A program made the translations under genes and the position numbers. This document shows, one piece after another, positions 2,466 to 33,719 of a stretch of 33,719 nucleotides of DNA (positions are counted from its first letter, which is position 1; the number at the start of each line of letters is the position of its first letter). This DNA comes from a virus. The DNA lies in IMG/VR virus record IMGVR_UViG_3300035670_000789, positions 1-33,719 of that record. One strand, given 5' to 3'. The notes beneath the pieces were generated by a model. That model saw only the letters and a program-made list of their open reading frames with translations, made no database searches and was not told where the DNA came from.

Positions 2466-2588
2466 ATGGACATCCACATTGCACTTGATCGGTTGCGCTA
2501 CCTGTTGGCGCAGCCGGAGGAAACCGAGGACGAGGAACCGGACCCGCGGGATAGCGACCGCTGGGCCTTTGAAGCGGAGGAAGCATGA
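2466..2588 (+). CDS. Gene 8: very small acidic protein, unknown
   Basis: A 40-codon reading frame filling the gap between gene 7 (stop 2458-2460) and gene 9. It has no strong ribosome site but lies five bases after a stop, so translational reinitiation would suffice. Its stop overlaps the gene 9 start as ATGA (2585-2588), the same junction used by most genes here, which supports it. The C-terminal two thirds is almost all acidic (EETEDEEPDPRDSD). It also carries the ribosome site for gene 9 (GGAGG near its end). Confidence 0.55.
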   Translation: MDIHIALDRLRYLLAQPEETEDEEPDPRDSDRWAFEAEEA

Positions 2589-3361
2589 CGGAACAATCGA
2601 CAAACAACCTTGGCGTCTGGAAACAGTTCGCGGACCCGCCTGAGTGGGCGCTCGGAAAACCCCTGCCCGAGGGCGGCGGGACGCCGGTCAAGGCGCTCTG
2701 GATGATTCGGTGCGCAACGGAACTCTGGGGCCGCGCGGGTTCCGGTTGGGGCTGGGAGGCTGGCCCGGCGCAGTTTGACGAGCAGTCCGGATTCTGCCGG
2801 GTGCTAGCTCGGGTCTGGGTCGAGTCCAGAGACCAGGCCATTGAAGAGGAAGCGCAGTGGCCCATCTGGCAGAAGTCGAAATACGCGAAGGCGGGCGAGA
2901 CGCCGTATTCGCACCCGGTCATCAATGGATGGAAGCGAGACGAAAACGCGGCGATGAAATGCCGGACGCACGCTATCAGCAAGGCGCTAAGCCGGTTCGG
3001 CATCGCGAGCACGATCTACATGGGATACGACGACCGGTGGGAACAGGACCGCGACCAGGACGGCGGCGGCAACGGCGCGGCGAAACCCGCCGCGTCGGCC
3101 GGCAACGGCGGCAACGGAAAGACGAAGCCTGCCGCCAACCCCGACGCCGCAGAGCGGAGCCGCCTGCAGAGCGTCATCCGCGCGGCGCAGGCGAACCTGA
3201 ACCTGAGCAACGAGGAGATGCGCCAGTTCAGCGCCGAGGTGTTGGGCGGCGCGAGCACGAAAACCATGGCGCTCGATGCACTCGCCCGCGTGCCGGTGCA
3301 GCTCCGGGACTGGGCGGAACAACGCGAACCGGCGGCGGCCGGGACGGAGGCGCCGTTCTGA
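2585..3361 (+). CDS. Gene 9: Rad52/ERF-like single-strand annealing protein (probable)
   Basis: A 258-residue protein. Residues about 20-150 contain a globular part ending in AMKCRTHAISKALSRFGIAS followed by an acidic turn, a pattern like the helical KAL-x2-x-G stretch of Rad52/ERF-type phage annealing proteins. A Gly/Ala/Asn-rich linker (about residues 159-185) joins it to a small helical C-terminal domain of the kind often seen in annealing proteins. It lies directly before an SbcC-like ATPase and SSB, the expected partners. The assignment rests on motif resemblance and context; it could instead be an unrelated DNA-metabolism protein. Confidence 0.5.
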   Translation: MTEQSTNNLGVWKQFADPPEWALGKPLPEGGGTPVKALWMIRCATELWGRAGSGWGWEAGPAQFDEQSGFCRVLARVWVESRDQAIEEEAQWPIWQKSKYAKAGETPYSHPVINGWKRDENAAMKCRTHAISKALSRFGIASTIYMGYDDRWEQDRDQDGGGNGAAKPAASAGNGGNGKTKPAANPDAAERSRLQSVIRAAQANLNLSNEEMRQFSAEVLGGASTKTMALDALARVPVQLRDWAEQREPAAAGTEAPF

Positions 3362-5196
3362 TGCGACTACACTCAATCCAAATCCGCAACGTGCGGTGCG
3401 TCGATGATGAGCTCATCGACGTTAGCGGCCGGAGTCTATTTCTGCTCGGCCACAACGGCACGGGCAAATCGACGGTGCTCGAATGCGTCCGGCTGGCCCT
3501 GTTTGGCCGGTGCGCCTGGACCGACGCCCGCGGCAAAGTCCCGCACCCCGACCGGGTCCACGGGCAACAGGGCGAGTGGTCCGAGGTGTTTACCGAGTGG
3601 CGGCGCGGCAACGACAACCTTCGCGGCGAGGCCCGCATCGAGGGCGGCAAAGTCAAGTGGTCCATGGTAGACCTTGGCACGGGCGAAATCTGGGAGTCCC
3701 CGGCAAAGTTCTGGGGCGACAACATGGAACGCGCCTACATGGCGGCGACGCTCACGGGGTCCAGTCTTGGGCTACTGTCCGGGCTGCTGTGCGAACAGAG
3801 CGAGACTCTGTTCGGGCTCGACGCGGTCGAACGGGAATGGCCCGGGGTGCGCGGGCTTGCGGACCGGGCCCAGTCCCTCGGGTTCATCATGGACCGGCTG
3901 CAAGACCGCCAGGGCTGGGAACGCCTGGGCCTGACAGCGTACAACCGGCGGCGCGATGTCAAGAAGGAAGCGAAGGCAAACGCCGCGGTCCTCGGGGACT
4001 ACGGCGACTTCGCGGGCAGCATCGAGGCGGCGGAACAGGCGGAGCAGGCGGCGCGCGCGAAGGTAGACGAACAGCGCCGGGTTGTCTCGGGGCTCAATCA
4101 GGCGCTCGGCGAACTGCGGGCACACGAAGGCGAGCCCAGCCCGGGCGAGCTGCGCGACCGGCTAACCGAAGCAGAGGCGGCGCTCGAAAGCGCCATCGCC
4201 GAGGCGAACGCCGCGGAGTGCGCGCGACAGGAGGCGGAGTCCGAGCTGGCGGACGCGAAGGCGAAGGCGGCGGCGGCGGCGGCGGACGCGGCCCGCGAGC
4301 GGAAACAACTCGACGCCCTGAGCGCCGACTGCCCCGAGTGCCCGACCTGCGGCCGGGCTTGGTCGAAGGCGGCCCGCGAGAAGCTCCTGAACGCAACGAC
4401 CGCGTCGGTCGGAATCTTGAACGTTGCCGAGCAGCAGGCCCGCGAGCTCCTGGAGTATTGCGCGGACCAAGTGCGGGCGGCGGCCGGGGACAGCAGCGAA
4501 TCCGAGCGCGCGGCGGCGGCGGCGCACGCGGCGGTGGTCGAGCTGCGCAAAGCGCTGGAACGGGCGACCGCGCCAGAGGTCCGGCACGGCGAAGGCGAAG
4601 CGCTAATCGCGGACCTGGAACGCGCCGAAGCGGAGCTCGGGCGGCTGGATGCCGCCTGCCGGGCGGCCCATGACCGCGTGACCCGCTGGGCGGAATGCGG
4701 CCGGCTGCGCGCGGCGATTGACGAGGCTCGGCGCATCGAGGCAGAACTCGACGCACTGGTAGACGCCTTCTACCACGGTCAGATTCTCGACAAGGTCGCG
4801 GCGCACGCCGAGACCCCGGCGCTGGTGCGGTTGGCCAACGAGGCGCTACCCGACGGCTACGTCATTGAGGCGGCCGGACCGGCGCTCACACTGTGCGCCC
4901 CGGGCGGAACCCCTATCCCCGTCGAAGCGGCGAGCAGCGGCGAGCTGTGGCGCGTCGCGGCGGGGCTGGCCTACGCCCTGGCCCGCGAGACCGGCGCGCC
5001 GCTCATCATCGACAACGCCGACGCCTTGGACTACTCCGGGCGTCTTCACCTTCAGGAGATGCTCGGCGATGACTCGGTACAGACCATTGCCGCCGCGGCC
5101 TGGTCGAATCCGCAACCCTACAACCCTGACACCATGGCTGCCCGGTTCCCGGGCGTAACGGTCCGCTGGATGGAGAACCAAGCATGTCTGATCTGA
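3361..5196 (+). CDS. Gene 10: SbcC/Rad50-like SMC-type ATPase
   Basis: A 611-residue ATPase of the Rad50/SbcC/T4 gp46 type. The N-terminal Walker A is GHNGTGKST at residues 30-38. A long Ala/Glu/Arg-rich coiled coil spans about residues 200-500 and is broken by CPECPTC at 324-330, the zinc-hook CXXC. The C-terminal lobe has the ABC signature SSGE at 525-528 and Walker B LIID at 548-551. The ATG at 3361 shares a base with the gene 9 stop (TGATG); the open frame continues upstream but inside gene 9. The usual partner nuclease (SbcD/Mre11/gp47) is absent from the genome. It probably processes or tethers DNA ends during recombination-dependent replication. Confidence 0.85.
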   Translation: MRLHSIQIRNVRCVDDELIDVSGRSLFLLGHNGTGKSTVLECVRLALFGRCAWTDARGKVPHPDRVHGQQGEWSEVFTEWRRGNDNLRGEARIEGGKVKWSMVDLGTGEIWESPAKFWGDNMERAYMAATLTGSSLGLLSGLLCEQSETLFGLDAVEREWPGVRGLADRAQSLGFIMDRLQDRQGWERLGLTAYNRRRDVKKEAKANAAVLGDYGDFAGSIEAAEQAEQAARAKVDEQRRVVSGLNQALGELRAHEGEPSPGELRDRLTEAEAALESAIAEANAAECARQEAESELADAKAKAAAAAADAARERKQLDALSADCPECPTCGRAWSKAAREKLLNATTASVGILNVAEQQARELLEYCADQVRAAAGDSSESERAAAAAHAAVVELRKALERATAPEVRHGEGEALIADLERAEAELGRLDAACRAAHDRVTRWAECGRLRAAIDEARRIEAELDALVDAFYHGQILDKVAAHAETPALVRLANEALPDGYVIEAAGPALTLCAPGGTPIPVEAASSGELWRVAAGLAYALARETGAPLIIDNADALDYSGRLHLQEMLGDDSVQTIAAAAWSNPQPYNPDTMAARFPGVTVRWMENQACLI

Positions 5197-5615
5197 AGCT
5201 GCCGGAAATTAACGAGGTGCGCCTTGCCGGGCGCCTGACCCGGGACGCCGAACTGAAGTACTTGCCGAGCGGGACCGCCATCGCGGACTTCTCCGTGGCG
5301 GTGAGCAAACGGCGCAAAGGCGAGGACGGGAAATACACCGAGCAGGTCGCGTTTATCGACGTCGCGGCCTGGGGCAAGCTGGCGGAGTTCTGCGGCGCGC
5401 AGCTTCGGAAGGGCGCGGCGGTATACGTCGCGGGCGAGCTGCGTCAGGACTCGTGGGAGGACCGCGAGTCCGGCCAGAAGCGTAGCAAGACGAAGGTCAC
5501 GGCCAGCTCGGTGCAGACCCTCGAATGGCCGGACCGTGACGATAAACCGCGGCGCGAAACGGGCATCAGCGGCGGGCCCGCAACCGATGACGACGACGGC
5601 GACATGCCGTTTTAG
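5184..5615 (+). CDS. ssb: Gene 11: single-stranded DNA-binding protein
   Basis: A 143-residue SSB. The OB-fold (about residues 8-115) shows family landmarks: NEVRLAGRLTRDAELKYLPSG, then FSVAVSKRR, FIDVAAWGKLAE and GAAVYVAGELRQDSW. The C-terminal tail DDDDGDMPF (135-143) is the acidic peptide used to bind replication and repair partners. It overlaps gene 10 by 13 bases. It coats single-stranded DNA during phage replication and should cooperate with the annealing protein of gene 9. Confidence 0.95.
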   Translation: MSDLKLPEINEVRLAGRLTRDAELKYLPSGTAIADFSVAVSKRRKGEDGKYTEQVAFIDVAAWGKLAEFCGAQLRKGAAVYVAGELRQDSWEDRESGQKRSKTKVTASSVQTLEWPDRDDKPRRETGISGGPATDDDDGDMPF

Positions 5616-5710: not shown

Positions 5711-6718
5711 ATGAAGATAGGCATCACGCAACACCCGAAGACCGGCGGCTTGGCCCGCCGACTCGGCGTATGCGTCGCGCAGGCCGTAGGGCACCTGGAG
5801 CTGCTCACGCACTTCACGGCGTCCTACGCCCGGCGCGGCGACGTCGGCAGGTGGACGGACGCGGACATTGCCGAGGGCTGCGGCTGGACCGGCGACCCGG
5901 GCGAGTTCATCGCGGCGCTGGTAGAAACCAGGTGGTTGGACCAATGCGCCGAAAACAGGCTGCTGCTCCACGACTGGGCGGACCACGCACCCGAGTATGT
6001 CGCCAAGGCGCTCAAGCGGAAGGGCGAATCGTTCGCGGTTTGCGTCTCGGCGGACGCAGTCCAGACAACGGCGGAACGTGTCCGGACAGTGTCCGGACAA
6101 AGTCAGACAGAATCCGGACAGCGTCCAGACAACGGCGGAACATGTCCGGACAGTGTCCGGACAGAATCCGACAGCGACCGGACGCAGTCCAGACAAGAGC
6201 CGATTTTGTCCACCCTACCATGCCCAACCATGCCAAGCCCAACCTATTCGACTCCGTCTGCCGGACAAAATCCGACGGCGGAATCTGTCCGGACAGACAC
6301 GGACGGAATCTGTCCAGACACGGACGGAATCTGTCCAGACACGGACGGAATCTGTCCAGACGCAGACGGCGTCCAGGAGCCGGTTGCCGACGGACTTCGT
6401 CCGCCGGACCCGAAGGACCAGCCAGTCATGACGTTCCCGGTCGAGTCCGGGGTCTGGACGCTCACTGAGTCGGCGGTCGCCGAGTTCAGGCGCACGTTCA
6501 GGAACCCGCCATGGTTGGAGCTCGAACTTGACAAGGCGCGGCTATGGCTGGTGGCAAACCCGGCGAAGCGGAAGACGGCTCGCGGCATGATGAGGTTCCT
6601 TGCGTCCTGGCTGTCGCGTGCCCAGGAAAACAAAGAGACGAAACTGAACGGAGGTACTAATGGGAAACATCGATTTGGCGAAGTCGATCCTAACGACCCG
6701 GAGTTGTGCTTCTCATAG
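5711..6718 (+). CDS. Gene 12: winged-helix replication initiator with internal repeats
   Basis: A 335-residue replication protein. The N-terminal domain (about 1-100) reads as a winged-helix domain seen in phage replication organisers: GDVGRWTDADIAEGCGW, EFIAALVETRWLDQ, LLLHDW. The middle (about 115-240) is a low-complexity stretch created by DNA repeats. The C-terminal part (KARLWLVANPAKRKTARGMM, then RFLASWLSRAQEN) resembles the DnaT-like module that contacts helicase loaders. The ATG at 5711 follows AAAGGAAG. It overlaps the loader gene 13 by 59 bases, matching the classical initiator-plus-loader pair. As in lambda O, the origin probably lies inside this gene. Confidence 0.75.
   Translation: MKIGITQHPKTGGLARRLGVCVAQAVGHLELLTHFTASYARRGDVGRWTDADIAEGCGWTGDPGEFIAALVETRWLDQCAENRLLLHDWADHAPEYVAKALKRKGESFAVCVSADAVQTTAERVRTVSGQSQTESGQRPDNGGTCPDSVRTESDSDRTQSRQEPILSTLPCPTMPSPTYSTPSAGQNPTAESVRTDTDGICPDTDGICPDTDGICPDADGVQEPVADGLRPPDPKDQPVMTFPVESGVWTLTESAVAEFRRTFRNPPWLELELDKARLWLVANPAKRKTARGMMRFLASWLSRAQENKETKLNGGTNGKHRFGEVDPNDPELCFS
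6051..6196. repeat. 64-bp-period tandem repeat, origin-like
   Basis: Units begin at 6051, 6115 and 6179 (the last is partial, 18 bases). Segments 6061-6099 and 6125-6163 are identical except for one base (G6078/A6142). Each full unit contains two copies of the perfect palindrome TGTCCGGACA spaced 11 bp apart (6079-6088 and 6090-6099; 6143-6152 and 6154-6163). A 64-bp period is not a multiple of three, so the three units are translated in three different frames. This points to selection on DNA rather than protein. Confidence 0.8.
6281..6368. repeat. 21-bp iteron-like repeats, origin-like
   Basis: GAATCTGTCC recurs at 6281, 6306, 6327 and 6348 (spacing 25, 21, 21 bp) within 21-bp units that continue as AGACACGGACG. 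The first unit contains a fifth perfect TGTCCGGACA (6286-6295); the others carry TGTCCAGAC. The repeats encode the heptapeptide DGICPDT. Between this array and the 64-bp repeats lies a relatively AT-rich stretch (about 6196-6256) that could be a melting region. Confidence 0.75.
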
Positions 6719-7454
6719 GTGCGACGCCTGCGGGGCTCCCATTGAGCCCGTGCTCGGCGAGGTCTGCGGCGTGGTCATCACGTCCCCGGTCTGCGACGCC
6801 TGCGCGCAGGCTGCCCGGGCAGAATCCGACCGCATCGTTGCGGAGTCCCGGGCGCGGTCACAGCGGGAGCTGCTCATCGAGCGGGGCCTGCTGCCGCCTG
6901 AATCGCGCGTGGCGACGTTTGAGCGGGCTGGACAGGTGGACGCCCGGGACCAGCGGCATTATGCCGCCATGGACGCGGCGACGCGGCAGGACGGCCGGCT
7001 GCAGCGGAACCTGTTCCTCTTCGGCAGGAAGGGCGCGGGTAAATCGTTCCTCGGCCTGTGCCTGCTGAACCGGGGCATGGCGGCGGGTCTGAGCGTCGCC
7101 CAGTTCTCGGGGCATCGGGTCATCCAGGACGCGACCAAGGACCGGCGCCACACACGAACCGCCGGGACGGTGGGCCTGCTGCTACTCGATGACGTGCATC
7201 TCGTCAGCTTCCCTTGGCGCTCATGTCTCGCGGAGCTGCACGACCTGTTCGACGCGCGGGCCAAGGCGAGCCTGAGGACCATCCTCACATGTCAATACCC
7301 GGCGACCCCGGGCAGCGCGCGGGCCGGGAAATACCCCACGACCTGGGCGCAGTGCATGGCGGCCGAGACGGGCGGCGAGACGCTCGCGGTTGGCGCGATA
7401 CTGGACCGTCTGAAACCGCTGGAACTCGAGTTCCTCGGGGAGTCAATGCGATGA
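6660..7454 (+). CDS. Gene 13: DnaC-like AAA+ helicase loader
   Basis: A 264-residue ATPase. Walker A is GRKGAGKS (122-129) and Walker B is LLLLDDVH with D177-D178, spaced as in DnaC/DnaI/IstB loaders. The N-terminus carries two CXXC-type pairs (C21/C24 and C45/C48) that could bind zinc, as in several phage and DnaI-type loaders. The ATG at 6660 follows GGAGG at 6650-6654 and lies within gene 12 in another frame. Since no complete helicase gene is present, it probably loads the host DnaB at the phage origin with gene 12. An IstB-type transposition protein is unlikely because no transposase is present. Confidence 0.8.
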   Translation: MGNIDLAKSILTTRSCASHRCDACGAPIEPVLGEVCGVVITSPVCDACAQAARAESDRIVAESRARSQRELLIERGLLPPESRVATFERAGQVDARDQRHYAAMDAATRQDGRLQRNLFLFGRKGAGKSFLGLCLLNRGMAAGLSVAQFSGHRVIQDATKDRRHTRTAGTVGLLLLDDVHLVSFPWRSCLAELHDLFDARAKASLRTILTCQYPATPGSARAGKYPTTWAQCMAAETGGETLAVGAILDRLKPLELEFLGESMR

Positions 7455-33228: not shown

Positions 33229-33276
33229 CGCGGCGAGGCGCCACGTTCTATCCATTGGCATTGCCCGAAACCTGCC

Positions 33277-33306
33277 GACGGACAATTAGGCGTCTAATTG
33301 TCCGTC
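33277..33306. repeat. Perfect 13-bp inverted repeat
   Basis: GACGGACAATTAG (33277-33289) and CTAATTGTCCGTC (33294-33306) are exact reverse complements around a 4-base loop GCGT. The element starts 49 bases after the last late stop codon and is followed by CTAATTTTCC, so it could be an intrinsic terminator. The right arm is repeated in direct orientation nearby, which points instead, or in addition, to a protein-binding site. Confidence 0.75.
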
Positions 33307-33407
33307 CTAATTTTCCGTCGAGTCAAAGCGGAATAGGCCCTAGAATCAATGGGTTTCGAGCGAACACGACATCAGGATGGATTAATTAGGCAGGCTAATT
33401 GTCCGTC
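33294..33407. repeat. Three direct copies of CTAATTGTCCGTC
   Basis: Copies lie at 33294-33306, 33307-33319 (one mismatch, CTAATTTTCCGTC, directly abutting the first) and 33395-33407. The third also has ATTAG five bases upstream, so it can form a short dyad. Repeated 13-mers in both orientations within about 130 bp look like iterons or operators. Which protein binds them cannot be told from sequence. Confidence 0.65.
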
Positions 33408-33423
33408 GGGAGCCGGCGCCACA

Positions 33424-33459
33424 TAGACCCGTCCGGTCCGTTTTAGACCCGTCCGGTCC
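33424..33459. repeat. Tandem 16-bp repeat TAGACCCGTCCGGTCC
   Basis: Two identical 16-mers at 33424-33439 and 33444-33459, with a 20-bp start-to-start spacing (about two helical turns). They end just before the dyad at 33466. The regular spacing suggests a protein-binding pair. The core CGTCCGG resembles the TGTCCGGACA motif found in the origin-like region inside gene 12. Confidence 0.65.
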
Positions 33460-33465
33460 AGTGAT

Positions 33466-33719
33466 TGTAAGCGCGATTACACAATCATCGAGCCTAGCCG
33501 CACACAGAAATCGAGCCCGCGCAAAAGAAATTCGCAAACCCCCTAAAAATGGGGCATTTTCGCTCATATCAGGCTTGACTACGCGGCGATACTATGGCAT
33601 ACTCTAGATAGTAAGCGGCGGGCATGGAGCCCGGCGCGAGACGCGGCGAGAGCCGCATGGAGATTGAGAGATGACGGACGCATTGAGCGAGTACGTTGAC
33701 GAGTGTAAGGCGCAGATCG
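33466..33719. repeat. Terminal direct repeat, right copy
   Basis: Second copy of bases 1-254, including the non-coding dyad, the first early promoter and the first 49 bases of gene 1. With this overlap removed, the unique genome is 33,465 bp. The single C/T difference lies in the promoter spacer and probably reflects variation in the sampled population. Confidence 0.9.
33671..33719 (+). CDS. Gene 1, partial second copy at window end
   Basis: The first 16 codons of gene 1 recur here as part of the terminal repeat, cut by the window end. It is not a separate gene. Confidence 0.85.
   Translation, partial: MTDALSEYVDECKAQI

Follow-up and report, generated by a model that had tools for sequence, protein, structure and literature searches.

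Does a repeat array inside a phage initiator gene mark the site at which replication begins, or is it the product of repeat expansion in a tolerant stretch of protein? The locus that raises this question lies in IMG/VR record IMGVR_UViG_3300035670_000789, the whole of which (33,719 bases) was analyzed and is referred to here as the window. Its first and last 254 bp (1–254 and 33466–33719) form a direct repeat with a single mismatch, although the ends are not classed as repeats in the record; because of this repeat, the window is probably a complete phage genome of ~33,465 bp. Three adjacent genes frame the question:

5184–5615, + strand: SSB gene (PF00436, E 2e-31)
5711–6718, + strand: initiator gene that carries the candidate origin (335 aa; phrog_9474, 'replication initiation protein')
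6660–7454, + strand: DnaC-like helicase loader gene (phrog_50, E 2.2e-12)

The initiator protein matches phrog_9474 over residues 2–141 (E 1.5e-18), a family also matched by 74 of 74 aligned relatives, and the order of SSB, initiator and DnaC-like loader fits an origin at this position. Searched by tblastn with the window's loader as query, the other 95 loci described below yielded no relative. Immediately upstream of the SSB gene, the exonuclease-family (phrog_7838) and SbcC-like genes at 2585–5196 suggest a recombination module. Elsewhere in the window, an ORF at 23504–24742 contains in-frame tandem repeats of 63 and 69 bp and encodes an alanine-rich protein.

Repeat array within the initiator gene

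An earlier note on this DNA described a 64-bp tandem repeat read in three frames and proposed it as a strong candidate for the replication origin. The elements considered here are:

6051–6196, unstranded: 64-bp tandem array, with sites at 6058, 6079, 6090, 6111, 6122, 6143, 6154, 6175 and 6186
6079–6099, unstranded: pair of perfect TGTCCGGACA palindromes, 11 bp apart
6143–6163, unstranded: pair of perfect TGTCCGGACA palindromes, 11 bp apart
6213–6244, + strand: CC tract, seven CC dinucleotides at 5–6 bp steps
6258–6369, unstranded: second site cluster past the CC tract, comprising the perfect site at 6286 and 21-bp repeats at 6294–6369 with TGTCCAGACA

For the array at 6051–6196, TRF gives a period of 64, 2.3 copies and 86% matches. 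The units at 6051, 6115 and 6179 fall in frames 1, 2 and 0 relative to 5711, and the differing peptides quoted for them are correct on translation. Each unit had been credited with a pair of perfect palindromes, which is so for units 1 and 2 but not for the third, an 18-bp stub (6179–6196) with one degenerate site. All five perfect TGTCCGGACA copies in the 33.7-kb record lie within the initiator gene, at 6079, 6090, 6143, 6154 and 6286, with frame offsets of 2, 1, 0, 2 and 2, so that all three reading frames are used; the expected count in the window is 0.03, and 0 of 100 dinucleotide shuffles reach five. Sites with at most two mismatches number twelve and span 6058–6362, a wider region than previously stated, and the second array at 6294–6369 keeps its 21-bp period in frame.

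The window by itself can also be read as a neutral minisatellite, in which slippage expanded a short repeat within a disordered linker whose length is free to vary as long as the frame is kept. The linker is indeed predicted to be disordered, tandem duplication alone yields frame-shifted DNA identity, and units 1 and 2 differ at only 10 of 64 bases. None of these differences falls within either perfect palindrome. When synonymous codons are shuffled with protein and codon usage fixed, exact TGTCCGGACA copies average 0.49 and reach at most 3 in 3000 shuffles, against five observed. Same-protein shuffles yield a mean of 7.0 sites with at most two mismatches against the observed twelve, a number that 11 of 3000 shuffles reach; because such shuffles often produce imperfect sites, the weaker TGTCCGGACA-like sites are partly due to the encoded peptide. 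Thus, the window-only case for selection at the DNA level is fair but not decisive, since two units are too few and slippage or a recent duplication also gives frame-shifted identity. To call the array direct evidence of DNA conservation, as had been done, is too strong from the window alone; the claim holds once relatives are added.

The repeats overlie a linker between two folded domains

An AlphaFold2 model built on 74 aligned sequences divides the initiator as follows:

5711–6040, + strand: N-terminal winged-helix domain, residues 1–110 (pLDDT mostly >95)
5993–6019, + strand: candidate specificity helix, residues 95–103 (K99), a helix in the AlphaFold2 model whose residue 99 predicts shared repeats
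6041–6415, + strand: disordered linker, residues 111–235, whose DNA contains the candidate origin (pLDDT mostly ~50)
6416–6646, + strand: C-terminal domain, residues 236–312 (pLDDT mostly 83–94)

The repeat DNA coincides with the disordered central linker. The C-terminal domain is similar to the corresponding end of a replisome organizer from a Ruminococcus phage. For the N-terminal domain the model suggests a weak similarity to the RepA_N-type fold: the top four VIA matches are the plasmid initiators 4pql, 4pt7, 5kbj and 4pta, with weak Z scores of 5.6–4.8, followed by the DnaD N-terminal domain (Z 4.3), and 4pt7, 4pta and 5kbj are given as RepA_N proteins in the available text of PMC7145576. 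Foldseek returned no structural match at E 0.001, and the initiator protein matches no Pfam family at E 0.5, RepA_N included. At a threshold of E 0.001, the window's protein has no match among O-like families; among the relatives, the O-like phrog_678 matches 8 of 74 and phrog_345 matches 4 of 74.

Relatives carry other repeats at the same place

A search with the N-terminal domain, blind to the motif, recovered 95 relatives (80 viral and 15 genome loci), or 96 genes with the window's; of these, 84 were kept, the window's included, as non-redundant genes with a linker of at least 120 bases. A single-protein search of viral contigs for relatives gave three pattern matches, none of them a relative. 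Perfect TGTCCGGACA occurs in only 6 of the 96 genes, the window's among them, and the printed linkers mostly have repeats of their own, named by eye as TGTCGCGACA, GTGCGCAC, TTCCGGAA, CCTAAGGAGG, GTACGTAC, GGTTGCAACC and others. Identical 7-mers recur at a lag of 11 in 27 of 84 linkers versus 2.3% of 2008 control segments, at a lag of 10 in 37 of 84 versus 1.5% (a count that includes 5-bp tracts), and at a lag of 22 in 16 of 84 versus 1.1%. Lag 20 is likewise raised, and all of these values are far above synonymous shuffles; the mean lag-11 count, for example, is 1.62 in linkers and 0.06 under synonymous-codon shuffling. The palindrome score, a stricter measure, is less uniform: it exceeds all 60 shuffles in just 38 linkers and fails to do so in 46, so not every family member is a clear case.

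The DNA that follows the N-terminal domain is therefore strongly enriched in short repeats at lags of one and two helical turns, and the motif mostly differs from phage to phage. The comparison with related initiator genes proposed in the earlier note thus turns out in favor of its origin candidate, with helically spaced repeats of other sequences at the equivalent place. Ruminococcus phage phiRgIBDN1, which comes from a named collection, shows the same kind of arrangement: its replisome organizer gene contains five copies spaced at 11 bp.

The motif itself also recurs more remotely. A scan of IMG/VR for two TGTCCGGACA sites 11 bp apart identified 25 stretches. Four of these (L018, L021, L028, L032) encode relatives of the N-terminal domain with 34–52% identity to the window's, and five more (L008, L012, L014, L024, L030) have, by eye, TGTCCGGACA at the equivalent place in other initiator-like proteins, one of which has a Lin1244_N domain. 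For the initiators of L008, L012, L024, L006, L091, L056, L106 and L003, Pfam at E 0.1 gave no name; the sole match among these eight was LisH for L024 (E 0.066), below the LisH cutoff. Seven other whole records, selected via TGTCCGGACA itself, hold 10 copies, 8 of them inside the candidate initiator gene and the remaining 2 located ~30–40 bp beyond its stop. Dispersed TGTCCGGACA pairs were also seen in contigs that look actinophage-like by eye (L009–L011, L016, L020, L022, L023, L025–L027, L029, L031), where they lie outside initiator genes and, in some cases, directly upstream of genes. A literature search by title and start of abstract, with partial coverage, returned no paper on this initiator family or on a CC-periodic origin tract, and the papers that matched TGTCCGGACA dealt, judging by their titles, with unrelated subjects such as p53 and primers.

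Residue 99 and repeat sequence

The test for covariation between residues and repeats covered 74 of the 84 genes, with 3 truncated genes and 7 near-duplicates excluded. Once overall identity is allowed for, no column has a stronger association with shared repeats than residue 99 (partial r 0.276, against ≤0.153 in 200 label permutations, a control that does not preserve phylogeny), and the next-ranked columns, 103 and 95, are residues of the same helix. Among pairs with <45% identity, 24.5% have at least two repeated 6-mers in common if residue 99 matches and 2.9% otherwise. The median column ratio is 1.08; the ratio of the near-invariant column 10 lies above that of column 99 but derives from few unlike pairs. 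In this first set, K99 accompanies GTC..GAC-like sites, glycine CTnAG-like sites and H98 GCGCAC-like sites.

A held-out set comprised the 34 of 78 further loci with <80% identity; the class words used in this test, such as CTnAG, were picked after both sets had been seen. Sharing among its pairs with <45% identity is 14.2% if residue 99 matches versus 3.6%, and column 99 ranks second of 104–105 columns, with column 14 or 2 above it. Two held-out loci (L298, L313) sit on contigs already seen (L041, L021) and were dropped from the pooled set of 106, in which the residue-99 effect points the same way in each of the six identity bins. These comparisons, which control for phylogeny only in part, point to a statistical link between the helix that adjoins the linker and the sequence of the repeats.

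The neutral minisatellite is very improbable in light of the relatives, whose repeats have unrelated sequences but occupy the same place with one-turn spacing, far above both controls and synonymous shuffles. Moreover, TGTCCGGACA recurs in remote initiators, and the repeat sequence tracks residue 99.

A strand-biased CC tract and no AT-rich DNA beside the repeats

The iterons are accompanied by a second periodic element. In the window, a chain of seven CCs is reached by 1 of 103 other segments. Across the family, 70 of 84 linkers have a tandem tract with a 5- or 6-bp period, usually downstream of the repeats, that scores above the 99th percentile for 1223 controls. CC every 5–6 bp on the coding strand, in chains of at least six, occurs in 50 of 84 linkers and in 4 of 1223 controls, and GG chains of at least six on the same strand occur in 1 of 84. 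The CC signal may in part be proline-repeat coding, because 29% of synonymous shuffles keep chains of at least six and 252 of 441 CCs share one frame. Tracts with a 5-bp period, however, cannot hold a reading frame. An AT-rich unwinding region beside the iterons was sought in the 84 relatives and not found: AT excess relative to the locus is ~0 across linkers and −0.033 in tracts.

A scan for CCWAACC tracts was tried as a marker of initiators and rejected as non-specific. By eye, ~18 of the stretches inspected (80 of 115) lie in initiator-like genes, and the others lie upstream of start codons or elsewhere. Among the scanned stretches, 5-bp CCWAACC tracts are found just upstream of or near the start codons of other genes in L134, L135, L142, L150, L157, L173, L182, L191 and L199.

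Candidate origin and alternative explanations

These data are best read as an iteron origin that lies inside a gene, as in lambda O and RepA_N systems; it would be read by the product of that gene and has no AT-rich element near the iterons. We put at roughly 0.8 the probability that the array, within the initiator gene, supplies the iterons of this phage's origin of replication. The origin candidate of the earlier note gains strong comparative support from the phased repeats of relatives at the same place and from the covariation of residue 99 with the repeats. Cumulative GC skew, which that note had offered as a check, does not bear it out; the curve rises over most of the record and has no turn at 6 kb.

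Two further explanations place the function of the array elsewhere. First, the sites may be an operator array: the initiator, or some other regulator, would bind them to regulate how the replication operon is transcribed, and not to start replication. Phased palindromic sites suit an operator too, and autoregulation by initiators is known in general. This explanation is nevertheless improbable: in relatives the sites lie mid-gene over a disordered linker and are coupled to a second, strand-biased tract, like the lambda O and pSK41 origins. Second, the true origin may be the intergenic region 33229–33465, with the gene array serving another role. That region contains CTAATTGTCCGTC in three copies and once more in inverted form, has two TAGACCCGTCCGGTCC, adjoins the terminal repeat and is AT-richer by eye, but it has no TGTCCGGACA within two mismatches, and we consider it the least probable of the explanations weighed here. 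It is possible that 33229–33465 is an operator or a second origin; by analogy with SPP1, which has oriL and oriR, a second origin would be compatible with both the gene-array and the 33229–33465 readings.

For the intragenic origin, a plausible mechanism is that the palindromes recruit the N-terminal domain, probably in the form of dimers that stack on the same side of the duplex; the helix formed by residues 95–103 would read the half-site. DnaB would be brought in by the C-terminal domain together with the neighboring DnaC-like protein. Because no AT-rich element was found there, the strand-biased CC tract by the iterons may be the site of strand opening or of loader or helicase engagement. 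Helix, iterons and tract lie within ~380 bp and could move together as one specificity cassette. A broader proposal is more tentative, at slightly under even odds: that this is a widespread phage initiator family with a self-contained specificity cassette, in which one residue or a few (98–99, with 95 and 103) of a single helix would act as a code for palindromic iterons. These iterons, hypervariable and spaced by one turn, would be encoded by the same gene a short way downstream, and the strand-biased CC tract (every 5–6 bp) would be a new origin element that replaces the AT-rich unwinding region.

Comparison with known systems

The architecture of an intragenic origin is already known from lambda O, SPP1 gene 38 and pSK41 rep, as far as the available text of the papers cited here describes them. 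In lambda and Stx phages, direct-repeat iterons are bound by the initiator gene product, with four iterons in lambda and six in Stx phages, plus an AT-rich region; the window resembles them in its direct repeats in the middle of the initiator gene and its nearby helicase loader gene (available text of PMC7466680). Unlike lambda, it has one-turn palindromes, a CC tract, no AT enrichment and no family match to O. The pSK41 origin lies centrally in rep, over a dispensable linker between the winged-helix DNA-binding and C-terminal domains, and in pPR9 an N-terminal domain plus origin have been swapped naturally (available text of PMC5703833). The window's repeats similarly overlie a central linker between two domains, and the weak fold similarity to this group ranks first. 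The Rep boxes in that system, as described in that text, contain AT-rich tracts, whereas the window's family has mostly GC-rich hypervariable palindromes and no Pfam RepA_N match.

In SPP1, gp38 binds direct repeats inside its own gene (oriL) and loader and helicase cooperate, a layout like that proposed for the window; an AT-rich unwinding element is reported for SPP1, whereas the linkers and tracts of the window's family are not AT-rich (available text of PMC6316719). At B. subtilis oriC, the DnaA-trio and DnaD recognition elements are periodic strand-specific motifs by the initiator boxes that guide opening and helicase loading (available text of PMC10201434). The window shares with them a short, periodic, strand-biased motif next to candidate initiator sites, but those trios and TnnT motifs are read as single strands, and the candidate element here is CC every 5–6 bp. 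Three features appear to be new here: hypervariable one-turn iterons throughout the family, the connection of these iterons with a single helix, and a CC tract instead of AT-rich DNA.

To our knowledge, the origins of uncultured phages are seldom known; if the present reading is correct, the sequence of the initiator gene would suffice to identify an origin. The tracking of sites by residue 99 makes a DNA-recognition code testable, and the many natural initiator–iteron pairs would be ready material both for such a protein–DNA code and for replicons that work orthogonally. The CC tract would raise the question of how strands open without an AT-rich element. Finally, the cassette layout would explain how one recombination event changes replicon specificity or incompatibility, comparable to what the available account describes for plasmid pPR9.
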